Assembly: GCA_030693205.1 (NCBI GenBank)
Contig: JAUYBG010000022.1
Coordinates: 1-44,925, forward strand
Direction of reading: 5' to 3'
DNA length: 44,925 bases
From: a bacterium
Lineage (GTDB): Bacteria > Patescibacteriota > Minisyncoccia > JAHIHE01
Part shown: in pieces, positions 13,224 to 44,925 of the stretch
Layout: the number at the start of each line of letters is the position of its first letter
Numbering within the stretch: position 1 is the stretch's first letter
Notes under the pieces: model-generated
Told to the model about the DNA's origin: nothing
The model's database searches: none
What the model saw: the letters and a program-made list of their open reading frames with translations, nothing else
Position numbers and translations under genes: made by a program

Positions 13224-13256
13224 ATTATTTAGAGTTTTGTCAGATAAAAATATTTT

Positions 13257-13315
13257 GATAGATCGTTCGATTGGTATCTACGGCTTACGTTTGATATTGG
13301 GTCTAACGATCTATC
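13257..13315 (+). repeat. 11-bp inverted repeat downstream of the pilin gene
   Basis: GATAGATCGTT (13257-13267) and AACGATCTATC (13305-13315) are perfect complements 37 nt apart; an inner GGTATC/GATAT pairing could extend the structure. Possibly an RNA 3' end that protects pilin mRNA; inference only. Confidence 0.6.
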
Positions 13316-13335
13316 TTAATATTAGCCATGGAAGT

Positions 13336-13454
13336 AAAATTTTCAATTTACAATTCTCAATTTTCAATGAATTTTCAATGTTTTAATTTTCAATTTGAAA
13401 ATTAGTTCATTGGGATTTGATTGAAAATTGGCGCTTGAAAATTGTAAATTTTTA
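13336..13454 (+). repeat. Long AT-rich imperfect palindrome
   Basis: The left half (AAAATTTTCAATTTACAATT, then CTCAATTTTCAATG) is matched by the reverse complement of the right half (ATTGAAAATTGGCGCTTGAA then AATTGTAAATTTTT). Each arm is about 55 bp with several mismatches. It fills most of the gap between the pilin gene and the membrane-protein gene. Confidence 0.75.
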
Positions 13455-13464
13455 TATTTAACAG

Positions 13465-14061: not shown

Positions 14062-14068
14062 AGCGATT

Positions 14069-15769: not shown

Positions 15770-15773
15770 GATT

Positions 15774-15857
15774 CACGATTTATGATATATGATTTACGAT
15801 TTATGAACGAGTTGGATTTTTCTTAAATCTTAAATCTTAAATCTTAAATCTTAAATC
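15774..15857 (+). repeat. ATTTA-type inverted repeat between pilB and pilC, with CTTAAAT tandem
   Basis: Left half: GATTTATGATATATGATTTA then CGATTTATGA; right half: five consecutive copies of the heptamer CTTAAAT then CA. The halves can pair as an AT-rich hairpin. Related structures sit at 17080 and 36541, each before a type IV pilus gene. Confidence 0.75.
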
Positions 15858-15863
15858 ATTTTT

Positions 15864-17075: not shown

Positions 17076-17079
17076 TGCA

Positions 17080-17152
17080 CAGATTTAGGATTTATGAATT
17101 ATGATTTATGAATAATTCAAAATCCTAAATCTTAAATCCTAAATCTTAAATC
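17080..17152 (+). repeat. ATTTA-type inverted repeat between pilC and pseudopilin gene
   Basis: GATTTAGGATTTATGAATTA then TGATTTATGA on the left is partly complementary to CCTAAATCTTAAATCCTAAA then TCTTAAATC on the right. It resembles the repeats at 15774 and 36541. Confidence 0.7.
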
Positions 17153-17154
17153 AG

Positions 17155-17694
17155 ATGAACAATCGTGGTTTCAGTTTATTGGAATTAATAATCGTGATGG
17201 CGATTTTGGCTATTCTTTCCAGCGGCGCGGTGATTTGGTTTTTCGGGTATCAAGGGCAGGCTGAGGTTGACTCAACTTCTAAAATGATAGTTGACACTTT
17301 GCGCGATGCCCAATCGCGTTCGATCAGCGGAAAAGACTTTAAGGCGTGGGGTGTATGTTTTAGCGCACAGGAAAATAAATTTGTTTTATTCCGGAATGAT
17401 TGCAATAGCAATGGCGCGATGGATAATGGCGAAACAGGGGTGGATTGCGGAGGCGGCGAGTGTTTTGACTGCGATCTGAAATGCAACGGAGTCGCCGTTA
17501 AAGAAGATAATTATTTAGCGTCTTTTGTTAAGATCGGCAATGTCTCTCTTTTGGGCGGAGGAAATAAAATTATTTTTAATAATCGGGGAAGCGGCGCGGC
17601 GCAATACGGGACAGTAAGGATTGAGCAAACGAATAGTAGCGCGAGTTTTAAAGATATTATTGTTACTTCTCAGGGAAAAATTGACAGGCAGTAA
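17155..17694 (+). CDS. GspH-like pseudopilin with Cys-rich insert
   Basis: A 179-residue prepilin. The leader MNNRG is cut before FSLLELIIVMAILAILSSGA; Glu is at +5. Helix residues and LRDAQSRSISG fit the GspH/FimT minor pseudopilin pattern. In the middle, MDNGETGVDCGGGECFDCDL adds a cluster of Cys (about residues 103-115), which resembles an NGETGVDCGGxxCxxC motif seen in secreted proteins and may bind metal or form disulfides. It sits after pilC and 16 bp before the next pseudopilin gene. The insert is unusual for a minor pilin and may be exposed at the pilus tip. Confidence 0.84.
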   Translation: MNNRGFSLLELIIVMAILAILSSGAVIWFFGYQGQAEVDSTSKMIVDTLRDAQSRSISGKDFKAWGVCFSAQENKFVLFRNDCNSNGAMDNGETGVDCGGGECFDCDLKCNGVAVKEDNYLASFVKIGNVSLLGGGNKIIFNNRGSGAAQYGTVRIEQTNSSASFKDIIVTSQGKIDRQ

Positions 17695-17710
17695 ATAGGA
17701 TAGTAATTAT

Positions 17711-18388
17711 ATGGAAAAAATTTTAAATCAAAAAGGCGCGCTTTTGCTGGAAATATTGCTGGCGGTTTTGGTCGGCGCGACGATTATCGGCGCGGTTAGC
17801 GGGCTGGTTTATGTAAGCCAAAAAAGCGGGCAGAATTCCGGCGCCAAAAGTTCGGCTATTTCTTTGGCCGAGGAAGGATTTGAGGCGATGCAATCGATTA
17901 GCGAGGCGGATTGGCATAATATTTATTTGCCGCCGACAGGCAGCGGCGATCCGGATACTGATAAAGGAATGGCAAAGCCGTATTATGTTTACAAAAGCGG
18001 CTCTTCCTGGGCGCTTGGCAGTGTGGTTGTCGGCAATGAGGGAAATATTTCAATTGATGGTATAATATACGCAAGAAAGATCTACATTGAGAATATTACC
18101 CGCAAAAAGACGCTGGAAAGGCCGATTTGCACGGAAGCGGAAAATTGCGCGCCTGACGAAAAAGTGAAAGATCTTTCCACGCAAAAGATCAAAGTGGTGG
18201 TCTCAAAAAGCGGCAGCGCGGATATTACGCTTGAAGAATATTTAACGCGCTGGAAAAATAATACTTTCAGCCAAAGCAATTGGTCCGGGGGTTCGGGGCA
18301 AGCGGATTTTTCCGATTCGTCGAAGTATGATTCGGATGACGGGAATATCGATACCGGCACGCCCGGGAGCATTAAGCTTAAACAGTAG
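17711..18388 (+). CDS. Prepilin-like protein (PilV/GspI type)
   Basis: A 225-residue prepilin-like protein. The leader MEKILNQKG precedes ALLLEILLAVLVGATIIGAV, with Ala rather than Phe/Met at +1 and Glu at +5, followed by LAEEGFEAMQSI, typical of PilV/GspI minor pilins. The C-terminal head is long and Ser/Asp/Gly-rich (SQSNWSGGSGQADFSDSSKY). It follows the GspH-like gene directly and ends the first pilus block. The order suggests co-assembly of a minor pilin complex with 17155 and perhaps 36631 and 37161. Confidence 0.8.
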   Translation: MEKILNQKGALLLEILLAVLVGATIIGAVSGLVYVSQKSGQNSGAKSSAISLAEEGFEAMQSISEADWHNIYLPPTGSGDPDTDKGMAKPYYVYKSGSSWALGSVVVGNEGNISIDGIIYARKIYIENITRKKTLERPICTEAENCAPDEKVKDLSTQKIKVVVSKSGSADITLEEYLTRWKNNTFSQSNWSGGSGQADFSDSSKYDSDDGNIDTGTPGSIKLKQ

Positions 18389-20677: not shown

Positions 20678-21889
20678 ATGTCAAAAAAATTATTTATCAC
20701 ATCAATTGTTTTATTAGTTATTATTTCTGGCGCGATATTTGTTTATTTTAAGACCCCAAAACCGGAATCTTCCGGAACGCGGGATGTTGTTCCGGGGGTC
20801 ACTGCCACGGAAATCATCGTCGGCTCGTCTTCTGCCCTAAGCGGACAAATCGGCTATCTCGGAAGCGCTTATATTAAAGGAGCAATGACGCGCATCAATC
20901 AGATAAATGAAGAAGGCGGGATTTACGGAAGAAAAATAAGAGTAATCGCCTATGATGACCAGTACGACCCTGCGAAATGCGTTGTAAATACCCAAAAATT
21001 GATTGAAGAAGATAAAGTTTTTGCCTTGTTCAATTATACGGGAACACCAACGGCAGTCAAAATTATTCCCATGGTGGAAGAAAAAAAAATTCCCTTGGTG
21101 GGATTATTAACCGGGGCTAACACGCTTAGAGAACCGTTTAGAAAATACATCTTTAATATCAGGGCGTCTTATTATCAGGAAATCGAGTTGGCGGTTAATT
21201 ATTTCACGGAAGATTTAAGACTTAAAAAGATCGGGGTTTTCTATCAAGCCGATGCCTATGGATTAGATGGACTTGAAGGAGTAAGGATCGCTCTTCAAAA
21301 AAAAGGAAAAGAATTAATAACCGCCGTTTCCTATGTCAGGGGAACAATGGATGTTGAAGAAGCAGTGGAAGCTATTGTTAATTCCGGCGCCGAAGCGGTG
21401 ACAATGGTCGGCACTTCTTCTCCATCAGCAAAATTTGTCAAATTAGTTAAACAAAAAAAACCAGGAATGCTTTTCCACAGCGTCTCTTTCGTTGGTCCCG
21501 AAGAATTTATGAAAGACTTGGAAGGTTCCACCGAAAATGTTTTTGTCACTCAGGTCGTTCCTCCGGTCAACGAATATGAAGCCAAACTTTTTGAAGGAGT
21601 AGCTTTATATAGAAATGCTCTTAAGAAATATTATCCCGGAGAAAATCCCAGCTTTGGAGGAGGAGAAGGTTTTATTAACGCTAGAATTTTAATTGAAGCC
21701 CTAAGAAGAAGTGGCAAAGATCTAACCAGAGAAAAGTTTATGGAGTCTTTAGAGTCAATCAAAGATTACTCAGTTGGTATGGGGTCGGCGGTAAGTTTTG
21801 GCCCCAATGACCATCAGGGAATAGACAGTGTTTATTTAACAATAATAAAAGATGGAAAATTTACCCTTTTCTTTTCCCCCCCCCATTGA
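20678..21889 (+). CDS. Membrane-tethered LivK-like substrate-binding protein
   Basis: A 403-residue type I periplasmic binding protein (Peripla_BP_6 family). An N-terminal anchor helix (about 5-24) has no lipobox Cys. The family start TATEIIVGSSSALSGQIGYL is followed by GGIYGRKIRVIAYDDQYDPA, then IPLVGLLTGANTLR and KKIGVFYQADAYGLDGLEG. Such proteins bind amino acids or related small molecules outside the membrane. No transport genes are near; the next gene is a sensor kinase, so a sensing role is likely. The gene ends in a run of nine C (21876-21884) just before TGA; one more C would extend the protein by several residues. The 3' end should be treated as uncertain. Confidence 0.88.
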   Translation: MSKKLFITSIVLLVIISGAIFVYFKTPKPESSGTRDVVPGVTATEIIVGSSSALSGQIGYLGSAYIKGAMTRINQINEEGGIYGRKIRVIAYDDQYDPAKCVVNTQKLIEEDKVFALFNYTGTPTAVKIIPMVEEKKIPLVGLLTGANTLREPFRKYIFNIRASYYQEIELAVNYFTEDLRLKKIGVFYQADAYGLDGLEGVRIALQKKGKELITAVSYVRGTMDVEEAVEAIVNSGAEAVTMVGTSSPSAKFVKLVKQKKPGMLFHSVSFVGPEEFMKDLEGSTENVFVTQVVPPVNEYEAKLFEGVALYRNALKKYYPGENPSFGGGEGFINARILIEALRRSGKDLTREKFMESLESIKDYSVGMGSAVSFGPNDHQGIDSVYLTIIKDGKFTLFFSPPH

Positions 21890-21926
21890 ATTTAATCGGT
21901 AGTTAAGGAATTTCAATGAATGGCAA

Positions 21927-21973
21927 ATCCTAAAACTTCGCTTTAGGATTTGCCTAAAGCGAAGTTTTAGGAT
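21927..21973 (+). repeat. Perfect 21-bp stem hairpin with alternative pairing
   Basis: ATCCTAAAACTTCGCTTTAG then G (21927-21947) pairs perfectly with 21953-21973 around a 5-nt loop. The left half can instead fold on itself (AAATCCTAAA with TTTAGGATTT). It lies between the LivK-like gene and the kinase gene. Confidence 0.85.
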
Positions 21974-22029
21974 GTAACTGATAAAACTAAAATAGGCGAT
22001 TTCGTAACCCAATCTAATTGATAATACTA

Positions 22030-24153
22030 ATGGAAAATAAAATATCCTCACTATTCAGCAGGATAATTGGCGGTTTTAAAATTAGAACCAAGCTTCTTTC
22101 CTTTTTTTTGATTATAATCCTGATAACTTCAGGAATTAGTATTTTAATTGTCTATTTTTTACTGAATAAAATCCTGACAAATGAGTTGTTGAACAGAGTT
22201 ACTATTGCTGCCAATAGTTTGGCGATTAACTTAACCGACCCTATTTTAATCAGCGATAAAGACAGAATTGTTGATTTGATTTTTAACGAAAAATTCTCTC
22301 GTAAAGATATTGTTTATGTAATGGTCATTGATGAGAAAAACCAAATTATCGAAAGCACTTCGAGCAAAGCACAATCAGAAACTCTTCTTCACAAAAATCT
22401 CTTATTTCCCGGAGAGAATACCCAGATTAAATCAATTCAATACGAAGTCGGGGAAGATATTTACGATATTGCCATAAGATTGGAATATAACAAAGGAATT
22501 TTAAGGACAGGCTACTATAAAAAACAAATTAATAAGGCGGTGATGGACATCATTTTATTTTTAATTCTTGGCTTACTGGTTTCTTTATCAATCGCCATAG
22601 CCCTCGTTTTTTTATTTGTCAATATAATCGTAAAGCCGATTAAAGATTTGGAAAGAATGGTTGCTGAGATCGCTGCGGGCAATTTAAAACAAAAGGTTTT
22701 AATAAAATCAAACGACGAAATCGGCCAACTGGCGGCAAGTTTCAATAATATGGCCGAAAGTTTAAAAAATACTTATGATAATTTAAAAGAAAAAGAAGAA
22801 GGATTGAAAAAAGCGAATTTTGAAGCTAAAGACAGGATCATTGAACTAAAAAAAAGCAACGATTTGCAGATAAGTGCCAAAACGGCTATGCTTAACCTGT
22901 TGGAAGACGCGCATCAAATGGAGCAAAAAATTAGAGAAAAAACAAAAAGCTTGGAAAAGAAGACGGAAGAGTTGTCGGAAAAAAATACTGAAATTTTAAA
23001 ATCACTGGAAAAAGAGAAGATTTTGGAGTATCATTTACAAAAAGAGCGTGATCATGTTGAAGCAATTGTCAATTCGGTCAATGATAGTATTTTAGTGCTG
23101 GGGATAAGTTTGAACGTGCTTCTCGTTAATGATTCTACCGAGAAAATACTGGGAAAATCAAAAAACGACTTAGTCGGAAAATATTTAGGGGATATCATAG
23201 ATATCTACAAGGATAATAAAAAGTTTTCATACAGGAATTGTTTTATTCTTAACGCGGTATTTTCAGAAAATCGCATAACGACAAAAATAGGAGAAAATTA
23301 TTCATATGTTGACAGGGACGGGGAAAAAATACCGATTGTTATGGCGGTTTCTTCTCTGCGGGGGACGGGCCGCGACCGCGGAGTTGTGCTGATGATCAGA
23401 GACATTACTAGCGAGAAAAAACTGGATGACGCGAAGATAGGTTTTATTTCCACTGCCAGCCATCAGTTGCGCACGCCGCTTACGTCGCTTCGGTGGTTCT
23501 CGGAAATGCTCTTGGAAGGGGATGCGGGCAAGATGAATAAAAACCAAAAAACTTTTCTTAACAATATTTACGAAGGCGTCGTTCGTATGATAAATCTGGT
23601 GAATCTTTTGCTGCAGATGGCGAGGGTTGAAGCCGGAAGAGTGAAGATAGAGCCGGTAGCGGTTAATTTATCCAAGATGACGGAAAGTGTCGCAACGGCT
23701 TTTAAAGCGGATCTCGAAAAGAAAAATCAAAAAGTGGTAATAAAGGCAATTCCCAAAAAAATTCCGGACATTTATATGGATTATGACGTTATTTGGCAGG
23801 TGCTTCAAAATTTGATTTCCAATGCCATAAGATATTCTCCGAAAAAAGGAGTTATTACGGTAAAAATAGAAAAAAAGGATAAATTTGTCGAGTTGTCGAT
23901 CAAAAATGAAGGAATCGGAATTCCCAAAAGCCAGCAAGAAAGGATCTTTGAAAAATTTTATCGGGCGAATAACGCCGTACAAGCGGCGCCCGAGGGGTCC
24001 GGTCTGGGATTGGCGCTGGTAAAATTATTAGTGGAAGGGTGGCGCGGAAAAGTGTGGTTTGAATCAAAAGAAGGCAAGGGCGCGACCTTCTTCATCACCA
24101 TACCGCTTAGCGGCATGGAAGCCAAAGAGGGCGAAGTGAAATTGGCGGTATAA
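22030..24153 (+). CDS. Membrane sensor histidine kinase
   Basis: A 707-residue kinase. Start at ATG 22030 is preferred to the in-frame TTG at 22018. Membrane helix 1 (about 20-45), an extracellular sensor (46-170, ending IAIRLEYNKGILRTGYYKKQ), membrane helix 2 (171-200), HAMP (200-250), a long coiled coil (250-340), one PAS (343-465 including VVLMIRDIT), HisKA with STASHQLRTPLTSLRW and His478, and HATPase with NLISNAIRYS, NEGIGIP and GSGLGLALV. The two receiver genes at 24484 and 24950 are the obvious partners. The upstream tethered binding proteins may present ligand to its outer domain. Confidence 0.93.
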   Translation: MENKISSLFSRIIGGFKIRTKLLSFFLIIILITSGISILIVYFLLNKILTNELLNRVTIAANSLAINLTDPILISDKDRIVDLIFNEKFSRKDIVYVMVIDEKNQIIESTSSKAQSETLLHKNLLFPGENTQIKSIQYEVGEDIYDIAIRLEYNKGILRTGYYKKQINKAVMDIILFLILGLLVSLSIAIALVFLFVNIIVKPIKDLERMVAEIAAGNLKQKVLIKSNDEIGQLAASFNNMAESLKNTYDNLKEKEEGLKKANFEAKDRIIELKKSNDLQISAKTAMLNLLEDAHQMEQKIREKTKSLEKKTEELSEKNTEILKSLEKEKILEYHLQKERDHVEAIVNSVNDSILVLGISLNVLLVNDSTEKILGKSKNDLVGKYLGDIIDIYKDNKKFSYRNCFILNAVFSENRITTKIGENYSYVDRDGEKIPIVMAVSSLRGTGRDRGVVLMIRDITSEKKLDDAKIGFISTASHQLRTPLTSLRWFSEMLLEGDAGKMNKNQKTFLNNIYEGVVRMINLVNLLLQMARVEAGRVKIEPVAVNLSKMTESVATAFKADLEKKNQKVVIKAIPKKIPDIYMDYDVIWQVLQNLISNAIRYSPKKGVITVKIEKKDKFVELSIKNEGIGIPKSQQERIFEKFYRANNAVQAAPEGSGLGLALVKLLVEGWRGKVWFESKEGKGATFFITIPLSGMEAKEGEVKLAV

Positions 24154-26505: not shown

Positions 26506-29500
26506 ATGATTAAAAGATTTTTAAAAATATTCAAAAATATTTTTATATTTCTGGTTATCACAGGGGTGGTTTTTTCCAATATCCCTTTTTATGCTTTGAC
26601 AGAGTTAGTCGATTCTTATGAAAAAACCAGCGGCATTGTGGATAAAGTTTGGCTATTGCAAAACGAACATCAGTCCAGAGTGGTTGATAATTTTTCATCG
26701 CTTCGCAATTTGGCGGAAAAGATGAAAGTGCGTGAAGCGCGAGCGGCAGTATCCGTTCGCAATGTGGGAGCATATGTGAGCGGCACAGCTAACTTAACGC
26801 CCGTTATTCCTGCTACCGCGGTCGCGGGTGATATGATGCTTTTGGCCTACGGCACAAAACCGTATAATGACGCCCCCACAATTAATCAAGGATGGATAAG
26901 TATCGGTTCCGCAACAGACGGCACAGTAGCGGCCGGCGTTGACGTCGGTTCAATGCAAACGAGTATTTACTATAAAGAGCATACGGGGTCAGAAACAAAT
27001 CCGACAATTACCAATGGTACAAACAATGTTTCCGGAGCTGCAATTATCGTATTTCAAAAAGGAGCGAGCGAAACATGGGAAACTCCCGTTGGCGCGGGCG
27101 GCGGAGACGCTACGGCGGGAACGGGATTTTCCGTTACCGCTTCCGCTAACCCGGGAATAACTTTGGGAGATATGCTCGTGGGTTATGCCGCTATCCGCTC
27201 TGATGCCGGCGCGCAATCGGCAATCGGTATTACCGCAACCGGATTGACGGTTGGAGCGTTCACGGAATACCCCGCATCAGATTTAATAACGACATCGGGC
27301 GGGGATATGGCGATGTCCGGCGGTTACCACTTGGTTACTGCAGGCACAGCTTCTGCCGCTCCGGTCTATGCCTCTACTTTGGCGGCTGCGCATACGGGTT
27401 CGGCTTTTATAGTGAGATTGCGAGCAACAACGCCGGCTGATACCACCCCTCCGACTCCAAACCCGATGACTTTTGCCACGCCGCCGGCAAACTTCAGCGT
27501 TAGTCAAATAGATATGACGGCGACCACGGCTACTGATGCGACTACGCCGCCAGTCAGTTATTTTTTCACTCTTGATAATTCTATTTGTGCCGCCAATGCC
27601 GGCACAGGCGGCACTTCCAGCGCGTGGCAGGCAGGAACTGCTTATAGCGATACTTTGCTTCAGCCGAACCAATGCTATGGCTATACGGTAAAAGCTCGCG
27701 ATTCGGCCGGCACCCCGAATGAAACTACCGCTTCCGGAATTTCTTCAGCTTATACTTCGGCTAATGTGCCGGGCACGCCGACTTTAAGCGGAGCAACGGT
27801 GTCAACATTGAATTTAACTAATGCCGAAAATAGCAACCCTGCTGCCAACCCGACAACCAACTTCGCCGTGCAAGTGGTTACCACTACACCCAATGATGCT
27901 ACTTGGATTAATCAATGGGTAAATGCCACTGGCAATCCTTCGGCCACGGCAGTTTGGTTAACTGATGCGCAATTGGACGCTTTGGTTTTACAAGGATTGC
28001 AAGGAAGTACTTTATATGGAGTTAAAGTAAAAGCACGAAACCAAGATACTGACGAAACCGCCTTGAGCGCGGAAGGGCAGGGGACGACATCGGCGCCTAC
28101 GCCGATAGTAACAACCACCACTACCGGCACGCAGACTGTTAATATTGATGCCGGCGCGACCGGACAATATCTTGGCGGCGCTTGGCGTTTCCAGCAAAAT
28201 TCCGGTTCAGCTGATACAATTACGGCTTTGACAATTTCCGATACAGGTACGATAAACGCTAATCTCAATGCTTCTAATGCGACACTTAGATATTCGACTG
28301 CTAATGCCGGCACTTGTTCTTACGCCGGCACGGAAACCATCGCTAAAACAGGTGTGTCTTTTGATGCTTCGGATAAAGCGGCGTTTACCGCTTTGACTTC
28401 CAGTATTCCTTTGACAATAAGCCCGAATTATACCTGTGTATATTTAATAATCGATGCGGGTGCCAATGCGGTGGGCGGAAATACGATTGAACCGCAAATT
28501 ACAGCCGCGGCTGATTTCACTCTTTCCGGCGGTTCAACCAAAGCCGGCACTTATCCGGTGGCGCTTGGAGGCATTACCACCGTTCGTCCTAATGTCACTG
28601 ATGCTACTGATTCGGCTTTGGCTGACGGCGGTAGAAATGGGGAAACGTTTACCATTACCGGCACCGGTTTTGGCACGGTTTGCGGATCAATTTCCGTGCA
28701 AGTGGCTGGCTTAGCTTTGACTTGCAACAGCGCGAACAATACGACTATTTCCGCGACTGTGCCATCAGCTCAAGTGACCACATTCGGCGGCACTGCCGCT
28801 AACGGTTTGCTGGTGACTGTGGGCGGCACGGCTGATGACGCGAGACTGACATATTATGTTTATCCGAATATTACTTCTGTTTCCGCAACTGCGACTGATG
28901 CGGCGCGAGAATTGGAAAGTATTACCTTGAACGGTACGCGATTTGATACGAATGCCAATCCCGGAACTGTTTATTTTACCGGCGGTTTTGGCTCGGTTGC
29001 GGCGTCAGTTACCACCTGGGGAGATACGGGCGTGATTGTCACTGTACCGGCGGCAATCGCCGATAATATTTACACCGGCGACATTACTTTAACTCGTGCG
29101 GCCGCTACCGGTTCAAAAACCGATTTGGCTTACGGCTCCAACACTTTTAGGATTCTGCCGAAAATCGCTTCCACTGCTCCAGTCAATCTTAAAGGCGGAC
29201 GAGGAGATACTATTTCAATCACCGGCGACCATCTTTGCCAATCCGGTGTTTGCCCTTCAGTATTCAGCGCGGCTAATAGTGTTAATTTTACCAGTGGATC
29301 AGTGACAAGCGGTTCTTCCACTTGGACCGACACTTCCATTCCTTCGATTGTAATTCCGGGCACGGCAACCGATGGAAATTTAAATATTACTTCCAATACT
29401 ACTTATACTTCCAACAATTTAACCTATGATATTAAATTCGCGCCGACTACACCGACCAATGGCGTGCCTGCCGGGCAATCAAGTATTGCTCTTAATCCGA

Positions 29501-32500
29501 CTATTAACAGTTCAGCATTTTCCGATGGTACTGACGCTGATACTCATCTTGATTCCGAATGGCAGATAGACGAAGAAGGGACATTTGTTACCCCTGAATG
29601 GAGTGAAACATTATCTAGCGCCAATGTTTCCGTTGTTGTAAATAACACGAACGGAGCATTTGCCGGACTTCTGGCCGGCCAAACTTCTCTTGTTTGCGGT
29701 AAAACATATTCTTTCAGGGAGAGGCATAAAGATAACGGCGGCGTAACTTCCCAGGAATGGTCAGGATGGGCAACCGCTTCCACGTTCAATACTATTTCCT
29801 GCGGACCGGATGCGACTTCGGTAAGTTATCAGGTCGGCGGCGATGGAGGGCGAAGCGGATACAGCGCTACTATAACAGGCGCCGGTTTTGGCACAGCGGC
29901 AGGCGGCAGTCGGGCAAATTGCGCGGGCGGCGCCGGCACCGGTTGCGTGAGATTTGTCGTCGGCGGTAATGCCACCGTGGCTGACGCTGATGTTACGGCA
30001 TGGACGGATACCTCTATCAGCTTTACTGTTAATTCTGCTCTTGCTTCTGACGGAGGCGCGCTGGCTTTGCAAGTAGTCGCCGCCGGCGTATCAGACGGCT
30101 CGCCGTTGAACTTTTATATTTATCCGACCGTCTCAAGCTATACCGCTACATTCGCCGATGGTGGTTATCAGGACGGCACGGTCACGATAAATGGCGATCA
30201 TCTCGGTTCATCCGGCGCGACGACAAATATTTCTTTTAATGGCACAAATCCCGCGAGCGTTGGCGTTTGGAATTCAACATCCATTAGCACGGTGGATACG
30301 CCGGATGCGGGTACTGATTCCGGCACGATCACTGTGACTCGAGCCAGCGATTCCAAAGCGTCAAACGCCTCGTCTGCTTTTTATATCTATCCGCAGGTTA
30401 CGGGAATTTCCGCCGCTACTTTTGCTGACGGCGGTTATCAGGATGGCACTTTTACTTTAAGCGGTAATCACTTTGGTGCCGGCGGCGTTGCAGCGAATAT
30501 TTCTATTAACGGTGTGGCTCCTTCTTCCATAGGAACTTGGGCAGTGGGCTCGGTCACTACGGTTGATATTCCCAATACTGGCACGGATTCAGGTGTGATC
30601 ACTTTGACCAATCCCGGCACTTCCAAAACTTCCAATAATTCAGCCGCATTTTATATTTATCCGCAGATTTCGAGCTATACCGCTTCCAAAGGAGATGGTG
30701 ATGTTCAGACTGCCACGATTACGATTTCCGGCAATCACTTTGGCGCCGGCGGCACGGGAGCCAATATTTCCGTCAACGGCGTGGCTCCTTCCTCTGTCGG
30801 AGTTTGGGGTGTGGGTTCGGTCACCGCGGTTGATATTCCCAATACCGGTACGGATTCAGGCGTGATCACTTTGACCAATCCCGGCACTTCCAAAACTTCC
30901 AATAACTCATCAACATTCTATATCTATCCGCAAGTCACTTCTATTTCCAATTGTGAAACTTTGGCGGCAGATGCCGCGCGTGAATACAGCGCTTCTGACG
31001 CCGCGTGTCCGGTAAGCGGACTTAAAGACGGACAGATCCATGTTAACGGCAATCACTTCGGCACGCCGGCCGGAGCGAATCCCTTGACTATTTTGGGTGT
31101 GGATACTTCCGGCTATACTTCGTGGACAACTACATTAGTAAGCACGGCGCAAGTGCCGGTTGCTATCGTTAACTCCACTTACATCGGCGACATTGTCATT
31201 AAAAGAAGCGATAACAAAACTCATGCTTATTACGGCGGAAATGTTTTCCGCATTCTGCCCAGGATCGCTTCCACTACTCCGGTTAATCTCAAAGGCGGCG
31301 GAGGCGATACCGGAGTGAGCATTGCGGGCGACCATCTTTGTCAGTCAGGCACTTGTCCGACTTTATTCAGCGCGGCCAATAGTGTTAATTTTATCGGCGG
31401 GTCAGTGACTTCCGGCTCTTCCACTTGGACCGATACATCTATTCCTTCAATTGTAATTCCCGGCACGGCAACGGATGGCGCTTTAAACATTACTTCCAAC
31501 ACTACCTATACTTCTAATAATTTAACTTATGATATTAAGTTCGCGCCAGCTACTCCGACCAATGGCGTGCCGGCCGGTCAATCAGGTGTGACTTTTAATC
31601 CGACGATCAACAGCTCGGCATTTTCCGACGGCACTGACGGCGACACTCATCTTGATTCTGAATGGCAGATTGACGAGGAAGGGACGTTTGTTACTCCTGA
31701 ATGGAGTGAAACATTATCCAGCGCCAATATCTCGGTAACGGTAAATAATACCAATGGAACATTTGCCGGACTTTTAGCCGGACAGACGGCTCTCGCTTGC
31801 AGTAAGACCTATTCTTTCCGAGAACGGCACAAAGACAATGGCGGAGTAACTTCCCAGGAATGGTCAGGGTGGGCAACCGCTTCCACGTTCAATACTGTTG
31901 CTTGCGGACCGAACGCGACTTCAATTTCCAATTCAACGGAAGGCACGCTTACCGACGGCGGCAGGATCAGCCAGACAATTGTTATTACCGGCACTGATTT
32001 TATCGGTGTTACAGCCGGAAATCGCGCTACTTGCGCGGGCGGCGCCGGCACCGGTTGTGTGAAGATCGGCGGCACTGGCGGACAGATCATTGCTGACGCA
32101 AAAGTGACTGCCTGGGGCGCCACCTCAATTACTATTCAATTATCTTTGACCGATCTGACTACGACTTATGGCGGCGCGACGACGAATGGTCTAATGGTCT
32201 ATGTTGCCGGCGTTTCCGATTCCGACGGCCTGACGTTTTATATTTATCCCGATATCACTTCTCTGACCGCGCCGCTGGGCGCAAATACCGGCGCCAGAGA
32301 ATACGCGTCTGGCGATACCGATGGAGTTTTCACTATTATCGGAAATAAATTCGGCACCGGACCGACCAGCGGTTCGGCCGTGATCGTCGGCGGGACAGTT
32401 GCGACTTTTGTGGCTGATGGCACTTGTGATGCCGCGGACGGCTGGGCGGAAACCTGTATAAAAGTTCAAGTACCGACAAGCATTTCCGACAGCACTGATT

Positions 32501-34866
32501 CCGGTTACGCGATCGTCACTCAAGGCGCCGGCACAAGCAATAAGGTTACTAATTCAACCGATGCGGAAAGCGCGATAAATATTTGGCCGAGAGTGACGGG
32601 TATTTCCGCCGCTACTCAAGCCGATGGCGGATATCAGAACGGAACATTTACTTTGAATGGCAGTCATTTTGGCGCCAGCGCCGGCTCTATTTTGGTTAAC
32701 GGGCAAACACAAGACGGTACGCCGACCTGGGGCGCGGCTTCAATTACCGGCGTCGGCATTCCCAATGCCGGCACGGATTCCGGCAGCATTGTTTTGACAA
32801 AATCCGACGCAAAAACTTCAAATTCCTGGTCAACATTTTATATCTATCCGCAGATCACGGGATTCACCGCTGCCAAAGGAGACGGCGATATACAGACAGG
32901 CACGATCACGATTTCGGGAAATCATTTTGGCACCAGCGGCGGCAACGCGCAGCTCTTGATCAATACCATTGCTCCGTCAGCGACCACTCCGACTTGGGGC
33001 GCAGTTTCGATCACTAATGTGGATATTCCAAACACTGGCGCTAATTCCGGCGTGGTCAAGGTGACAAATCCGCAGACTACCAAACAATCAAATGATTCTT
33101 CCGCTTTCTATATTTATCCGCAGATCACTTCTGTTTCCAATTGCGAGACTTTGTCGGGAGATACCGCGCGTGAATATAATGCCACTGATGCCGCCTGTCC
33201 GATAAGCGGATTAAAAGACGGTGAAATTCATATTAATGGCAATCACTTCGGTGCTACGGCGGGAACGCTCACTATTCTTGGCACAAGCGCTCCAACTTAT
33301 GTTTCTTGGGGAGCGAGCTTGATTTCCACCTTGCAAGTTCCGATCGCTATCGCGGACGATTCTTATACGGGCAGTATCGCGCTTACGCGTTCCGATGCCA
33401 CAACAAGCTCGTATACCGGTTTCAGGATTGCGCCGAGGATCATCTCTCTTAGCCCCAGCGATGGCGCGGAAAGTACCAGCGTAACGGTTATTGGAAATCA
33501 TCTCTGCCAAGCCGGTTCTGCTAATTGCCCGAACGCTTTTTCTTACACCACGCCGATCTCCAATGTTTTGTTCGGAACGACTAATGCTTTAGCTCAGACG
33601 CCTTGGGGTTGGGAAAATGGCGATAGTTCAGCAACAGGTGTTAAAGTTAAAGTGCCAGCCGGCGCGGGAATCGTAGCGGTAAAAGTGATTAGCGGCGTTG
33701 GCGGTTTTGATTACGAAAGCAATGCAAAAGATTTCAGTTATGTCTCTACCGCGCCGACTGACCCGACCAATTTGAGGCAATTTAAACCGGATGGTGTGAC
33801 TCAAATTACCATTGGCGCCGGCGTCAATAGCAATAGCGTTATCTTAAAAGGCGACAGCACGGCTTTGATTTCGATCAATATGGTCTTGGAAGTTGAAGTT
33901 AAGCAAACTTACATACCATTTGACGGCGCGCCGACCGCTTTAAGCGCGGTTCAAGGACCTGGTACTGTTTTTAGCGATGTCGCGGTAACGGTTTCCGGAT
34001 TAACTGATGGACTATATCATTGGCGAGCTAGAGCTAAAAATTCCGGTACCAACGAAGTTTCCAACTGGATCTCTTTTGGCGGAAACGCCGACGGCGTAAC
34101 AGATTTTTATGTGGACACCACCGGTCCGGTGATTTCCAGCGTTGCCGAAACTGATGTTTCCGATATTCAGGCGACTATTATTTGGAATACCGACGGAAGC
34201 GCTACTCAGCAAGTGGCGTATGGCACAGTCTGTCCGACCGCTCAAGCCAGCGCGGCCGCGACATTTAGCGTTTTGGCCAACAAGCAACCGGAGTCGCCGG
34301 CCGGTTCAGGCACTTCGCATTCAGTGGTTTTATCAGGCCTTATTGCCAGCAAAGATTATTATTATATGGTTCGTTCGGCCGATGCTATTGGTAATTATAC
34401 TTATAATCCGTCCGTTGCTAATTCTTGCAATAATTTTACGACCACGGCGCCTCGAACCAGAGTAATGAAAACCTTGGAATTTTACATCGAACAATTGAAT
34501 ACCGGCGCTACCAGTTTCAATAAGACTTTCGATACGTTTATTTCCGAATCAAAGATCGATCGCTCCAATATATTTATAAAAAGCGTTATTATTGAAGTTT
34601 TCGGAATTTCAAAAAGCGGAACCGGCGATATCACGGTTATTGTTAATTTGAATAGCTCCGAGACATCTTATGTTTTGGCTGATCCGGGTGCCAATAGCAC
34701 TTTTTGGAAATTCGCTAAAAATGCCAGTTCTTTGAACTTCGATTGTGTATCTTGCACGGATAATTTCAGTGTTGATAATTCGCTTGTTGTCAGCGTGAGC
34801 GGCGCGACCAGCACTTCTTTGCTTGGCGCCAAAGCCATCATTACTTATTATTATGAACCGTTATAA
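26506..34866 (+). CDS. Giant secreted repeat protein with many IPT/TIG-like domains
   Basis: A 2786-residue protein. An N-terminal signal/anchor (about 8-31) precedes a conserved beta-rich domain (80-312), fibronectin III-like stretches near 313-515 (PPTPNPMTFATPPANFSVSQ), and a long series of IPT/TIG-like Ig folds from about 700 to 2440 marked by GNHFG, GDHLC or GTGFG turns and FYIYPQ linkers. A further fibronectin-like part (about 2530-2640) and a C-terminal domain (2649-2786) follow. Large blocks are duplicated (883-1110 with 1583-1802; 1300-1585 with 2030-2310). There is no LPxTG motif or C-terminal helix. It is probably an extended surface or adhesion protein; the partner is unknown. Confidence 0.9.
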   Translation: MIKRFLKIFKNIFIFLVITGVVFSNIPFYALTELVDSYEKTSGIVDKVWLLQNEHQSRVVDNFSSLRNLAEKMKVREARAAVSVRNVGAYVSGTANLTPVIPATAVAGDMMLLAYGTKPYNDAPTINQGWISIGSATDGTVAAGVDVGSMQTSIYYKEHTGSETNPTITNGTNNVSGAAIIVFQKGASETWETPVGAGGGDATAGTGFSVTASANPGITLGDMLVGYAAIRSDAGAQSAIGITATGLTVGAFTEYPASDLITTSGGDMAMSGGYHLVTAGTASAAPVYASTLAAAHTGSAFIVRLRATTPADTTPPTPNPMTFATPPANFSVSQIDMTATTATDATTPPVSYFFTLDNSICAANAGTGGTSSAWQAGTAYSDTLLQPNQCYGYTVKARDSAGTPNETTASGISSAYTSANVPGTPTLSGATVSTLNLTNAENSNPAANPTTNFAVQVVTTTPNDATWINQWVNATGNPSATAVWLTDAQLDALVLQGLQGSTLYGVKVKARNQDTDETALSAEGQGTTSAPTPIVTTTTTGTQTVNIDAGATGQYLGGAWRFQQNSGSADTITALTISDTGTINANLNASNATLRYSTANAGTCSYAGTETIAKTGVSFDASDKAAFTALTSSIPLTISPNYTCVYLIIDAGANAVGGNTIEPQITAAADFTLSGGSTKAGTYPVALGGITTVRPNVTDATDSALADGGRNGETFTITGTGFGTVCGSISVQVAGLALTCNSANNTTISATVPSAQVTTFGGTAANGLLVTVGGTADDARLTYYVYPNITSVSATATDAARELESITLNGTRFDTNANPGTVYFTGGFGSVAASVTTWGDTGVIVTVPAAIADNIYTGDITLTRAAATGSKTDLAYGSNTFRILPKIASTAPVNLKGGRGDTISITGDHLCQSGVCPSVFSAANSVNFTSGSVTSGSSTWTDTSIPSIVIPGTATDGNLNITSNTTYTSNNLTYDIKFAPTTPTNGVPAGQSSIALNPTINSSAFSDGTDADTHLDSEWQIDEEGTFVTPEWSETLSSANVSVVVNNTNGAFAGLLAGQTSLVCGKTYSFRERHKDNGGVTSQEWSGWATASTFNTISCGPDATSVSYQVGGDGGRSGYSATITGAGFGTAAGGSRANCAGGAGTGCVRFVVGGNATVADADVTAWTDTSISFTVNSALASDGGALALQVVAAGVSDGSPLNFYIYPTVSSYTATFADGGYQDGTVTINGDHLGSSGATTNISFNGTNPASVGVWNSTSISTVDTPDAGTDSGTITVTRASDSKASNASSAFYIYPQVTGISAATFADGGYQDGTFTLSGNHFGAGGVAANISINGVAPSSIGTWAVGSVTTVDIPNTGTDSGVITLTNPGTSKTSNNSAAFYIYPQISSYTASKGDGDVQTATITISGNHFGAGGTGANISVNGVAPSSVGVWGVGSVTAVDIPNTGTDSGVITLTNPGTSKTSNNSSTFYIYPQVTSISNCETLAADAAREYSASDAACPVSGLKDGQIHVNGNHFGTPAGANPLTILGVDTSGYTSWTTTLVSTAQVPVAIVNSTYIGDIVIKRSDNKTHAYYGGNVFRILPRIASTTPVNLKGGGGDTGVSIAGDHLCQSGTCPTLFSAANSVNFIGGSVTSGSSTWTDTSIPSIVIPGTATDGALNITSNTTYTSNNLTYDIKFAPATPTNGVPAGQSGVTFNPTINSSAFSDGTDGDTHLDSEWQIDEEGTFVTPEWSETLSSANISVTVNNTNGTFAGLLAGQTALACSKTYSFRERHKDNGGVTSQEWSGWATASTFNTVACGPNATSISNSTEGTLTDGGRISQTIVITGTDFIGVTAGNRATCAGGAGTGCVKIGGTGGQIIADAKVTAWGATSITIQLSLTDLTTTYGGATTNGLMVYVAGVSDSDGLTFYIYPDITSLTAPLGANTGAREYASGDTDGVFTIIGNKFGTGPTSGSAVIVGGTVATFVADGTCDAADGWAETCIKVQVPTSISDSTDSGYAIVTQGAGTSNKVTNSTDAESAINIWPRVTGISAATQADGGYQNGTFTLNGSHFGASAGSILVNGQTQDGTPTWGAASITGVGIPNAGTDSGSIVLTKSDAKTSNSWSTFYIYPQITGFTAAKGDGDIQTGTITISGNHFGTSGGNAQLLINTIAPSATTPTWGAVSITNVDIPNTGANSGVVKVTNPQTTKQSNDSSAFYIYPQITSVSNCETLSGDTAREYNATDAACPISGLKDGEIHINGNHFGATAGTLTILGTSAPTYVSWGASLISTLQVPIAIADDSYTGSIALTRSDATTSSYTGFRIAPRIISLSPSDGAESTSVTVIGNHLCQAGSANCPNAFSYTTPISNVLFGTTNALAQTPWGWENGDSSATGVKVKVPAGAGIVAVKVISGVGGFDYESNAKDFSYVSTAPTDPTNLRQFKPDGVTQITIGAGVNSNSVILKGDSTALISINMVLEVEVKQTYIPFDGAPTALSAVQGPGTVFSDVAVTVSGLTDGLYHWRARAKNSGTNEVSNWISFGGNADGVTDFYVDTTGPVISSVAETDVSDIQATIIWNTDGSATQQVAYGTVCPTAQASAAATFSVLANKQPESPAGSGTSHSVVLSGLIASKDYYYMVRSADAIGNYTYNPSVANSCNNFTTTAPRTRVMKTLEFYIEQLNTGATSFNKTFDTFISESKIDRSNIFIKSVIIEVFGISKSGTGDITVIVNLNSSETSYVLADPGANSTFWKFAKNASSLNFDCVSCTDNFSVDNSLVVSVSGATSTSLLGAKAIITYYYEPL
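29155..29832 (+). repeat. Internal duplication in the giant gene, copy 1 (pairs with 31255-31918)
   Basis: The DNA here encodes APVNLKGGRGD through EWSGWATASTFNTISCGP. A second copy at about 31255-31918 encodes TPVNLKGGGGD through EWSGWATASTFNTVACGP. Long stretches are identical or nearly so at the nucleotide level, for example around TCCCAGGAATGGTCAGG in both. Recent duplication or gene conversion is likely. Confidence 0.85.
31255..31918 (+). repeat. Internal duplication in the giant gene, copy 2
   Basis: Second copy of the block at 29155-29832. The flanking domains differ, so a multi-domain unit was copied as a piece. Another block, about 30400-31250, resembles 32590-33430 in the order ADGGYQ(D/N)G, GDGD(V/I)QT, SNCETL. 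Confidence 0.85.
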
Positions 34867-36630: not shown

Positions 36631-37155
36631 ATGGTATTTAATATTACTAAACAAAAGTTTGATGGAGGCTTTTCGCTATTGGAACTATTGATCTATATCG
36701 CCATCTTATCGGGTTTTTTGGTAGTGATCGTTAATCTTTTTTTTACGATTTCCACCAGTTCCACGCGCGAAGAGGTGCGCGTCGAAGTCAGGCAAAATTT
36801 GCGTTTTGCCAGCCAGAAGATAGTGGATGAGGTGCGTTCCGGGAAGGAGATCATTTCCGCGACTTTGGCGGACGGGGGATCGGGGAATATTTTGGATATT
36901 AAAATTGCCGATGAGACCACTACGAGATTCAGCGTCTCGAGTGGCGTTTTACGAAGAACGCAAAATTTCGGTTTGCCGGGAGAAATTACGGAAAACATTA
37001 CAACGGACCAGGTTACCGTCAGCATGTCGCCGGAAATTTTTAGTCGCGCGGGTAGCACTATTCAAATAAATCTCAAAATAGACTATAATGATAACGGAAG
37101 GGGAGATTATAAGTTTTTTGAAAGCGTCAAGACAACCGCGTCTTTGAGATTGTAA
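36631..37155 (+). CDS. GspJ/PilW-like pseudopilin
   Basis: A 174-residue prepilin. Leader MVFNITKQKFDGG, cut before FSLLELLIYIAILSGFLVVI, Glu at +5. The LLELLIYIAILS pattern and the following VEVRQNLRFASQKIVDEVRS helix match GspJ/PilW minor pilins. The head domain is beta-rich with LADGGSGNILDIKIAD. It opens the second pilus block, 5 bp before the PilX-like gene. Confidence 0.85.
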   Translation: MVFNITKQKFDGGFSLLELLIYIAILSGFLVVIVNLFFTISTSSTREEVRVEVRQNLRFASQKIVDEVRSGKEIISATLADGGSGNILDIKIADETTTRFSVSSGVLRRTQNFGLPGEITENITTDQVTVSMSPEIFSRAGSTIQINLKIDYNDNGRGDYKFFESVKTTASLRL

Positions 37156-37160
37156 TTAAG

Positions 37161-37613
37161 ATGTTTAAAAATAATAAAAAATATTGGGGAGAAAAAGGCG
37201 CCATGGCTCTGTCTTCGGTTTTGGCTCTGTCGATAATTTTATTGGCGCTGGGGCTGGCGATGGCATTTTCCGGATTTGTTCAAAGCGATATTACCTACAA
37301 TCAAGATAAAGCCGCTATCGCGTTTTATATCGCCGAAGCGGGAGCGAAGGATGCGATGCAGAAAGTCGTCAGAAATAAAAATTACAGCAACGCGGGTTAT
37401 GTTTTAAGCCTTACTACCGGTAGCGCGAATATTGTGGTCAGCAAAGACGTCCCAGCGGCGGAAAGAACGGAGATCTTGAGCACCGGCGCGGTGGGGGTGA
37501 ATACTAAAAAGATCAGAGTTGTTCTTAACACTGATACGGACAATGATAATAATGGAAAAGTAACGATTGTGTCTTGGGAAGAATGCCGGAAATCCGGCGC
37601 GTTATGCAATTAA
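37161..37613 (+). CDS. PilX/GspK-like minor pilus protein
   Basis: A 150-residue protein. The N-terminus EKGAMALSSVLALSIILLAL with KG|A cleavage and a long hydrophobic helix, followed by QDKAAIAFYIAEAGAKDAMQ, is the usual PilX pattern (helix with FYxAEAGxxxAxQ). The head is short and ends with two Cys (WEECRKSGALCN). PilX-type proteins join minor pilins at the filament tip. It lies between the GspJ-like gene and the PilM-PilN fusion, all on one strand with small gaps. Confidence 0.82.
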   Translation: MFKNNKKYWGEKGAMALSSVLALSIILLALGLAMAFSGFVQSDITYNQDKAAIAFYIAEAGAKDAMQKVVRNKNYSNAGYVLSLTTGSANIVVSKDVPAAERTEILSTGAVGVNTKKIRVVLNTDTDNDNNGKVTIVSWEECRKSGALCN

Positions 37614-37640
37614 ATTTTTACATAAGCATAAATTTTAAAA

Positions 37641-39116
37641 ATGGATTTTCTAAATCTTTTGATTCCCAAAGAAAAAATAGTCGGTATTGAAATAGGCAAT
37701 CGAAAGCTTAGGATGCTGGCTTTGGCCAAAGATAGTTTTGGCAATATTTCCGTTCAAGGAAAATCCGAAGTGGACATGGAAGAGGGCGTGATCGATCATG
37801 GCGCGGTGAAAGATGGAAAAAAACTAAGCGCCGCTTTGGCTAGTCTCAAAAAAACATTTAAACCCCGGAGCGCGCTGTCCGTGTTTGCGATCGTTACTGT
37901 TTCTCAAAATAATATTTATAGCGATATTTTGGAATTTCCAAAAAATTTAACGAATGAACAATTGATCGAAGCGATTAGTTTTAATGTTGCCAAGTCTTCG
38001 CCTTTGCCTTTGAGCGAATGCTATCTGGATTGGCAACTGATCGAAACCGGCAAGGTAAAAGACAAGATTTTGACCTATATTATTCCCAAAGGAATAGTAA
38101 ACGCCTATAAAAGCGCTTTGGAGGAGAATGGTTTCAGTCTTATCGCTTTGGAATCGACAACGCTCTCGATCGGCCGGGCGGCGGAAATAACCGGTGAACC
38201 GACTTTGTTTTTTTATTTGACGGACGAAGGCGTAACCAGCATGATTTATAGCGGTAATAATTCTTATTTCAGCCAGTTTGAATTTTGGCAGGAAGCTTCC
38301 GGCGGCGCGCCGATCAAAGATATTGGCGATCTTAGCAAAGTTTTGAAAACAAAAATCAAGAATTTGTCGTATTATTTTGAAAATCAGTACAATAAGGAAA
38401 AAATTAAAAAAGTTTTATTGATGAGTGAGGGTTTTGACGCGGATAAGATCATTGGAAAGATAGATTACAAAGATGTTTTGATCGAAAAAGCCAGTTCCGG
38501 CATTTCTTCGATAGATAATTATGACTGGATTCCCGTGGGAGGAGCGGCCAAGCGCGCTTTTATTCCCCGGAGCGAGGATACTATTATCAGCTTGCTGCCG
38601 GTTGGCACGGAAAGTCTTTACGAAACGCAAAAGATGACCTCTTTTGCCAACTCGATCTTGATCGTAGTGGCGACCATAATGTTGTTTTACATAGTGGCTT
38701 TTACGACTTCGCTATTTTTTATTTCTTATTTGGGAAAGGACTTAAGCCGGCAAATGGAAACCAGAAGCAACATGCAAATGCCCGCCGACTATTCCAAAAT
38801 TGACCAGGAAACCAAAGAATTCAATGGCTACGTCAGCGACTTGTTAAACGTTTCTTCCAAAACCAGCACTGATTACGGGGCTATAATGGGAAAGATCAGC
38901 AGTTTGAATTCTTCGGGAATAGCTTTGACAAGCATCAGTTTTGATAATATTTCAGGTGTGATCGCAATTTCCGGGGTTTCTTCATCCAGGGAAGACTTAA
39001 ACGCGTTTAAATTCCGATTAGCCAATTCTTCTTTTTTCAGTAACGTAAAATTTTCCGTGCAAAACATCGCTCAAAAAAGCAACATTCCTTTTAGTACAAG
39101 TTTTAATTTGAAATAG
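37641..39116 (+). CDS. PilM-PilN fusion, pilus alignment subcomplex
   Basis: A 491-residue protein. Residues 1-310 follow PilM, the FtsA/actin-like cytoplasmic ATPase fold: KIVGIEIGNRKLRMLAL, a helix with EFPKNLTNEQLIEAISFNVA, and GEPTLFFYLTDEGVTSMIYS. Residues 315-320 (ISLLPV) correspond to the INLLP-like motif at the start of PilN, which normally binds PilM. A membrane helix (336-362) and a PilN-like periplasmic part (363-491) with LNSSGIALTSISFDNISGVI follow. PilM and PilN are usually separate genes; here they are one chain. The PilO-like gene follows after 75 bp. Confidence 0.86.
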   Translation: MDFLNLLIPKEKIVGIEIGNRKLRMLALAKDSFGNISVQGKSEVDMEEGVIDHGAVKDGKKLSAALASLKKTFKPRSALSVFAIVTVSQNNIYSDILEFPKNLTNEQLIEAISFNVAKSSPLPLSECYLDWQLIETGKVKDKILTYIIPKGIVNAYKSALEENGFSLIALESTTLSIGRAAEITGEPTLFFYLTDEGVTSMIYSGNNSYFSQFEFWQEASGGAPIKDIGDLSKVLKTKIKNLSYYFENQYNKEKIKKVLLMSEGFDADKIIGKIDYKDVLIEKASSGISSIDNYDWIPVGGAAKRAFIPRSEDTIISLLPVGTESLYETQKMTSFANSILIVVATIMLFYIVAFTTSLFFISYLGKDLSRQMETRSNMQMPADYSKIDQETKEFNGYVSDLLNVSSKTSTDYGAIMGKISSLNSSGIALTSISFDNISGVIAISGVSSSREDLNAFKFRLANSSFFSNVKFSVQNIAQKSNIPFSTSFNLK

Positions 39117-39130
39117 CTTACAATATGAAA

Positions 39131-39211
39131 CCCGTTAGAAATAAATAAATAAATTATTTTTAACGAGGCAAGTAATAAAGAAAATATAAATATGGAAATT
39201 TCTAATGGGTT
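39131..39211 (+). promoter_or_regulatory. Three-segment leader (A, B, A') over the start of the PilO-like gene, copy 3
   Basis: A: CCCGTTAGAAAT (39131-39142). B: ATTTTTAACGAGG (39156-39168). A': ATTTCTAATGGGTT (39198-39211) in the first codons. B to ATG is 23 nt. It is the same arrangement as at 24427 and 24893, 14 kb away, before an unrelated gene. Confidence 0.65.
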
Positions 39212-39740
39212 GAAATTAAGTCAAATTGTAAAATTAATCATAACGATCTTTGTGATCATTGTCGCGGGCAGTGCGGGGTCTTTTGTATTAAAAAATAAAA
39301 TTGAAGCAAGCGGCAAGAATATTTATGAATCACGCAGTATGTTGAAGGTTTTGGAAAATCGAGATGAAAATTATTCTTTTCTTAAAACCGATTATCCTTT
39401 GGTGCGGGACGGGTTGCCGATTCTGAAAAAATCTTTGCCTAAAGAAGATGGCCTTGATAAAGTGGTTACGAGCCTGGACGCGCTGGCAAGTGAAACTAAT
39501 AATACCCAAAATTTAATTTTTGATTCTTCGGGGATCGCGCAGATCATCGGCGGAATGAGAAGCATTGATTTTTCGGCAAGCCTTGATGGCAATTTCGGAT
39601 CGTTTGAAAGTTATTTTAAAAAAATGCAAAGGCTTCCTTATTTCATTGAGATCGGAAGCGTTAGCATTAATAATGGCGCGGGAGTTTTTAACGACAATAG
39701 CCATTTAAGTTTTAAAGCCAAGCTTTACATTAAAAATTAA
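39192..39740 (+). CDS. PilO-like pilus assembly protein
   Basis: A 182-residue protein with one membrane helix (about 14-33), a coiled-coil region (35-65), and a small alpha/beta domain (75-182) with a PilO look: LPKEDGLDKVVTSLDALASE, then RSIDFSASLDGNFGSFESYF and KKMQRLPYFIEIGSVSINNG. PilO pairs with PilN around the pilus. Its first residues MEISNGLK are encoded by the leader repeat. It follows the PilM-PilN fusion, supporting the assignment. Confidence 0.84.
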   Translation: MEISNGLKLSQIVKLIITIFVIIVAGSAGSFVLKNKIEASGKNIYESRSMLKVLENRDENYSFLKTDYPLVRDGLPILKKSLPKEDGLDKVVTSLDALASETNNTQNLIFDSSGIAQIIGGMRSIDFSASLDGNFGSFESYFKKMQRLPYFIEIGSVSINNGAGVFNDNSHLSFKAKLYIKN

Positions 39741-43250: not shown

Positions 43251-43279
43251 TTGTTGTTTTGGTGAAAATATGGTATAAT
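43251..43279 (+). promoter_or_regulatory. Promoter of the large secreted protein gene
   Basis: TTGTTG (43251-43256) and an extended -10 TGGTATAAT (TATAAT at 43274-43279) are 17 bp apart, about 50 bp before the ATG at 43328. Confidence 0.7.
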
Positions 43280-43327
43280 ATTACATAAACAAAAAGGTTA
43301 ATAGGGGGTTTGTTTTGAATAAATAAA

Positions 43328-44925
43328 ATGAGAAATAATCAGAATTTAAAATTAAAAATTCTAGGTTTTTTATTTTTTCAATAATACTTGTCGTATTGTC
43401 TGTTTTTAATCTTCTTCCGTCTTCGGCGCAAGCGGTTGCCGGCGCGCCAAAAATTTTAAATTATCAAGGAAGGCTTTTAAATAATTCGGGCGATTTGCTC
43501 GGTGTTCCACCGGAAAATTATTGTTTTCGCTTTTCTATTTATAATGACGTGACTGTCGGGGCGCCGGACAGCAAGATTTGGCCCACGGGAACGCCGCTTA
43601 CGATGATAGTCAATGTTAGAAATGGAATTTTTAACGCGGGTGTCGGCGATACGGCGGCAGGCGGTGATCTTCTTGATTATAATTTTCAAGACAATGACAC
43701 CGTTTTTTTAAATGTTGACGTGGCCGCGCAAGTAAGCGGTTCTTGCGCCGGAGTGACTTTTGATAATTTGAGCCCGCGCCAGCGAATTGTTTCTTCCGGT
43801 TTTGCCGTGAATGCCAATACGGTCGGAGGGTTTACTCCGTCGCAAACTCCAGCGGGCAATCAAATTCCGGTATTGAATTCCGGAGCGCTTAATTTAGCCG
43901 GTGCGGTAAATGCAGGCGGGCTTACTTTGGGAACAGCTTCGTCCATAACAGGAATTATAAATTTAAAAAATTCTGCGAATAGCAATACTGTTTCTATACA
44001 ATCGGGTATAACATCCTCGCCATACACTCTGACTCTTCCGGTAGACGACGGGACACCAAACCAATTTTTACAAACAAATGGAACTGGGACATTGTCTTGG
44101 GTAACAATTGGCGGAGGCGGAGATGCACTGGTAGCTAATCCGTTATCTCAATTTGCTTTAACTACATCGCTCCAACTTAAAGGAGTTATTTCAGACGAAA
44201 CAGGTTCAGGAGCATTGGTCTTTGGAACCGCGCCGACTATTGCCGGCGGTTCAATCGGTGCTCTCACTTCTTTCGGTGTCCGCTCCACCGGCACCGGAGC
44301 TTTTGATTTGAAACTGGCCAATACGGAAAATCTGACGGTTTCCGACAAAACATTGACCGTAACTCTTAACAATGCCAATCGCGTTCTGACAATTTCCGGC
44401 GATGCAACAATTTCCGGCGCTAACACCGGGGACCAGACAAGCATTGTCGGGATCACCGGCACCACCGCCCAATTCAACACCGCTCTCTCGGACGCGGACT
44501 TTGCCACCGGCGGCGGCACGGCCACCGGCACCAACACCGGCGACAGCGCGGCCAACAGTTCTTCCACTTTTATCGGTATGACCTCCGTGGCCTTGAACCG
44601 AGCCTCAGGAGCTTTAGTCCTTACCGGCATCACGAGCATTGACGGCAGTGCCGCCACTGTCTCCGGCGCGGCGCAAACCAATATCACTTCTCTCGGAACT
44701 TTGACCGGACTCTCGATAGGCGGCACGGAAACGATCACTTCCGCTTCGGCTACCGCTTTGGTCGTCGGAGCCAGCGGCGTCACCAATCCCGCTTTTAAAA
44801 TTGATGCTTCCACCGTTTCTTCCGCGACCGGCCTTAACATCAAATCCGCGGCCGCGGCCGGCGGAGTGGCTCTTTCCGTCCTTTCTTCCGGCGTGGACGA
44901 AGCTTTGAATATTGACGCCAAAGGC
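43328..44925 (+). CDS. Large secreted repeat protein, partial, with frame change in its signal peptide
   Basis: ATG 43328 opens MRNNQNLKLKILGFLFFQ and stops at 43382. From 43372 the -1 frame is open without a stop to the window edge (over 515 codons) and begins IFSIILVVLSVFNLLPSSAQ, the hydrophobic core and cleavage site of a signal peptide. The body starts APKILNYQGRLLNNSGDLLG, seen in many secreted fibre-like proteins, and goes on to repeats such as ISGANTGDQTSIVGITGTTA, resembling tail-fibre and adhesin repeats. Only together do the two frames give a complete signal peptide. Either the T tract lost one T, or ribosomes slip at T TTT TTA. No in-frame ATG serves the body alone. The gene runs beyond the window. 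Confidence 0.8.
43366..43378 (+). promoter_or_regulatory. Slippery T tract (T TTT TTA then T6) at the frame change
   Basis: In the frame of ATG 43328 the bases read ggT TTT TTA TTT TTT. T TTT TTA (43366-43372) is a classic -1 slip heptamer and A TTT TTT follows at once. A seventh T in the first tract would also restore the frame. Confidence 0.6.

Follow-up and report, generated by a model that had tools for sequence, protein, structure and literature searches.

Programmed -1 ribosomal frameshifting is known from X XXY YYZ heptamers such as those of dnaX, of IS elements and of HIV-1 (U UUU UUA), and according to a review U_UUU_UUA is far less prone to shift in E. coli than A_AAA_AAG (PMC5009743). 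Short poly-A/T tracts near gene starts have been proposed as a general mechanism of gene inactivation, for example in inlA of L. monocytogenes (PMC2831843). Where frame transitions are unclustered and the gene has homologues, a survey covering 1106 genomes ascribes them mostly to sequencing errors or to recent indels (PMC3711429); an indel in a run of 3-8 bases can be partly bypassed through slippage of the polymerase or the ribosome (PMC3812077). In our literature search we found no paper that connects programmed ribosomal frameshifting to the candidate phyla radiation.

The window analysed here is a whole contig (C22) of 44,925 bases, belonging to a 1.0 Mb genome in 23 contigs that is rated 100% complete. 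The frame that begins at ATG 43328-43330 reads MRNNQNLKLKILGFLFFQ and is closed after 18 codons by TAA 43382-43384, while the -1 frame, immediately preceded by TAA 43336, runs open for 529 codons without a stop, from 43339 as far as the window edge, where the contig itself ends. The earliest ATG, GTG or TTG in the -1 frame is TTG 43396, already within the hydrophobic core, and the long-frame segment scores as coding, beginning 18 codons ahead of this codon. This reading of the ORFs bears out an earlier note on this DNA, which had described the ATG frame and a long -1 frame lacking a start of its own up to the window edge; the heptamer T TTT TTA followed by six T is likewise present (T6 at 43366-43371, A at 43372, T6 at 43373-43378). 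The two frames do meet, but not "exactly at" the heptamer as had been claimed: they overlap by 43 nt (43339-43381), a region that contains A4, A5, T6 and T6, and since a change anywhere within it would join the frames, the crossover is confined to these 43 nt rather than to the heptamer. The product that joins the ATG frame to the -1 frame would indeed carry a good signal peptide, although it would not be the only product to do so, since a start at AUU 43351 would also give one (MKNSRFFIFSIILVV...). The features of the region are collected in the table.

Table. Positions of the features around the frame change, numbered along the window
Feature	Position	Strand	Basis
Extended -10 promoter-like element TGGTATAAT, no good -35	43271-43279	+	read from sequence; inference
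Shine-Dalgarno-like AGGGGGT	43303-43309	+	7-nt match to the SD consensus, one G-U pair allowed
TTG AAT AAA TAA, a 3-codon frame (MNK-stop) with a well-spaced start	43315-43326	+	sequence
18-codon frame MRNNQNLKLKILGFLFFQ with its stop	43328-43384	+	sequence, ORF reading
Frame overlap; the sole region where a one-base change joins the frames	43339-43381	+	sequence, ORFs
-1 frame, encoding the signal-peptide core, the 'NYQGRL' domain at the N-terminus and the repeat-rich region; truncated by the contig end	43339-44925	+	sequence, homologues
T6-A-T6 tract, opening with T TTT TTA in register with the ATG frame	43366-43378	+	sequence
Weak 7-bp AU-rich hairpin, 8 nt 3' of the heptamer	43381-43399	+	folding against shuffles

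In our judgement the frame change probably reflects an isolated slip of one base, whether a real indel in a lineage that lacks MutS or a single error in the consensus, and such an ordinary slip is likely to account for it with nothing special required. A one-base slip in this A/T-rich stretch, most likely in T6-A-T6, would have put the first ~15 codons out of frame. It could represent a real and recent indel in the sampled lineage, aided by the absence of MutS mismatch repair, or alternatively a single mistake that the assembly introduced into the consensus close to the contig end. Cells with this form of the gene would make the full protein only at a low level, via accidental slippage of the ribosome or the polymerase.

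The locus was compared with homologues of the long frame, which encodes the signal-peptide core, then GAPKILNYQGRLLNNSGDLLG, and then a repeat-rich body. All 46 homologue loci, 37 from a first set and nine from a second (45 distinct, as one in the second set repeats the same sequence), have an in-frame ATG, GTG or TTG ahead of the hydrophobic core, and thus, among the copies examined, no other shows the frame change. Since the closest homologues are only ~60-61% identical, the tract itself is not comparable base by base. The long frame matches these relatives without a stop, and so the gene shows no further decay. In 10 of the 37 first-set loci only a GTG or TTG precedes the signal peptide (L005, L010, L018, L019, L020, L024, L028, L029, L033 and L037), and these ten family members mostly lack a Shine-Dalgarno (SD) sequence. 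In some members of the family TATAAT is found just 5' of the start, a placement that suggests leaderless transcripts in those members.

The secreted-protein gene is accessory: homologues are scattered over the phylum, with a match in 64 of the 383 genomes of the class, and among relatives the gene was found in eight of 54 searched genomes and is absent from a genome of the same family. Named homologues of the contig lie in Patescibacteria. Searches of Pfam, NCBIfam and PDB with the -1 frame protein gave no match, and PHROGs returned one weak virion-structural match, located in the repetitive part of the protein. Within the same genome, no paralogue with an intact start was found for the N-terminal domain.

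How ordinary are the tract and its heptamer in this genome? Over both strands of the window TTTTTTA occurs 81 times, against 61.7 expected. In the intact genes, counted over ~169 kb (the window, C14 and 100 kb of C6), T TTT TTA stands in register at 41 sites in 125 genes. Among the 38 genes with an intact hydrophobic N-terminus, 18 have T6 or longer there, and eight have T TTT TTA in register within the first 50 codons; a slip at the tract therefore needs no special site. About one fifth of the hydrophobic N-termini in the stretches examined thus carry such a heptamer with no frame change, and for this reason a slippery heptamer that happens to be in frame should, in an AT-rich genome, be treated with caution, as weak evidence.

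This bears directly on programmed -1 frameshifting at T TTT TTA, which would be needed for the full secreted protein to be made and which we regard as highly improbable, no dedicated frameshifting signal being evident. The slippery heptamer (43366-43372) is in the zero-frame register, a hairpin begins 8 nt after it and joining the frames yields a good signal peptide, all of which would fit such a mechanism. However, for the 61 nt that follow the heptamer the folding energy is -7.1 kcal/mol (z -1.67), and 13 of 200 shuffles were as stable; among the 41 other in-register heptamers, 26 are followed by a 61-nt fold that is equally or more stable, and 12 have an equal or better hairpin nearby. The larger leader (43286-43420) has a weak fold (z -2.06), and no downstream stimulatory structure was found above the background set by the shuffles and the other heptamers. 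Moreover, the frame change is not conserved across the 46 homologue loci, the heptamer is common in intact genes, U UUU UUA is reported to be much less shift-prone than A AAA AAG in E. coli (PMC5009743), and the 18-residue zero-frame product has no evident use. Thus, of the three defining features of programmed -1 frameshifting that were tested, the heptamer in register was found here, whereas the structure and the conservation were not.

For a slip of the ordinary kind, the repair background of the genome is relevant. A search for MutS domain V found none in this genome (rated complete, see above), so that slips would be poorly repaired; the domain is missing in 35 of the 37 genomes of the same order and class that were searched, this one included. 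The assembly could also be at fault. A systematic long-read homopolymer error would be expected to leave many genes broken at A/T runs, and this was not seen: intact genes contain 719 A/T runs of six or more (207 T and 512 A) that keep the phase, and the ~169 kb scanned showed no second clear frame break at a homopolymer, so that a systematic error is unlikely and an error here would be isolated. The one other candidate for a broken gene, at ~97.4-97.6 kb of C6 (minus strand), was rejected, as it involves no homopolymer slip. It is a histidine-kinase ATPase tail (NPNGSGLGLFIAKQIIAKHGGKIKV; locus L048, ~97390-97593) with no start of its own, separated by a TAG from the gene just ahead of it in the same frame, i.e. 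a gene remnant. The evidence against systematic error does not argue against a lone error near the contig end, from which the tract is ~1.6 kb away. We infer which base changed, and whether it changed in the cell or in the assembly, as opposed to the frames, the coding potential, the tract frequency and the homologues, which are observed. The earlier note had listed four options and chosen none; of these, mutation or assembly error is best supported, programmed frameshifting is disfavoured, and phase variation keeps a small probability.

Phase variation would mean that the T tract, near the beginning of a surface-protein gene, changes in length and thereby turns expression on and off reversibly within a population. 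We consider this unlikely, even though the protein is of a surface type, the tract is early, MutS was not found, and 5' poly-A/T tracts have been put forward as a general inactivation mechanism (PMC2831843). The first 50 codons also hold nearly twice as many runs of T6 or longer as expected (50 observed against 27), but this 5' excess stems at least partly from hydrophobic N-termini. Phase variation leads one to expect an unusually long, unstable tract, whereas the tract here is only T6, shorter than 62 T7-T9 runs that keep the frame in other, intact genes of this genome (49 T7, 12 T8 and one T9). A search of viral contigs for a near-identical record across the tract returned none, and genome contigs gave only relatives at ~58%. 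Quite unlikely, too, is the broader proposal that T6-A-T6 is a selected control point, at which either frameshifting or reversible slippage in the signal peptide would set the export of a large surface protein. As it stands, the finding matters little. Were reads to show mixed tract lengths, it would become a case of surface-protein switching in Patescibacteria, a subject on which, to our knowledge, there is little work.

One may also ask whether translation begins elsewhere. The promoter-like element at 43271-43279 was not reported by the consensus promoter scan, which requires a -35. A distance of 18 nt separates the AGGGGGT at 43303-43309 from ATG 43328, against 5 nt to TTG 43315; SD sequences, however, are absent in 92 of 120 genes of the stretches examined, and hence this spacing does not settle the choice of start. 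TTG 43315 shares its frame with the long ORF and is closed off by TAA 43324 and TAA 43336; its three-codon frame ends one base 5' of ATG 43328 and, together with the strong SD-like sequence, could couple translation to that ATG.

That UUG 43315 was the original start, and that two nonsense changes (TAA 43324 and TAA 43336) broke the gene, is hardly credible: the SD-like sequence is indeed closer to it and the intervening codons are lysine-rich, like the n-region of a signal peptide, but this is the less economical route, requiring two stop mutations where one indel would do, and the genome does not use SD sequences as a rule. Alternatively, no frameshift would be needed if the long frame were translated from AUU 43351, which would supply a short positively charged n-region with the hydrophobic core directly after it, and a start without an SD sequence would be usual among these genes. 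This is very unlikely as well, since AUU start codons are very rare, no SD-like sequence lies upstream, and none of the 46 homologue loci requires such a start. Re-initiation at TTG 43396, 12 nt past the stop of the short frame, was rejected, as it would leave a signal peptide without an n-region.

Elsewhere in the genome, the end of contig C14 is occupied by an open frame of 906 codons that has no start of its own (21001-23721, minus strand, locus L043). Its beginning is a near copy of window positions 44551-44711 (161 nt at 87% DNA identity), and its last part is a proline-rich tail, PTPEPTLSPTP. This frame may be the 3' part of the secreted gene of the window, or a paralogue, split by the assembly at repeats. 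The window itself also encodes, at 26506-34866, a secreted protein of 2786 codons with TIG repeats, with type IV pilus-like genes on either side of it (12552-18388 and 36631-39740).

Compared with the systems described at the outset, the locus shares with dnaX, IS elements and HIV-1 a heptamer in register and a hairpin at the usual spacing, but here the hairpin is weak and unexceptional, conservation is lacking and the zero frame yields no more than a piece of a signal peptide. With the poly-A of L. monocytogenes inlA it has in common a short A/T run near the gene start, a change in whose length breaks the frame, although here no variants in length were observed, the run is T6 rather than A7 and the protein is a different one (PMC2831843). 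It resembles the singleton frame-transition genes of the GeneTack survey in that the frame change is not shared by homologues and a homologous protein lies on its far side, whereas those genes come from finished genomes and this one from a 23-contig draft assembly (PMC3711429). Finally, it belongs with the secreted proteins of Patescibacteria that have an N-terminal '(Y/H/F)QGRL' domain, with which it shares the signal peptide, the GxPxI(L/I)xxQGRL motif, the repeat-rich body and up to 60-61% identity, and from which it differs in that only in this copy is the start out of frame.
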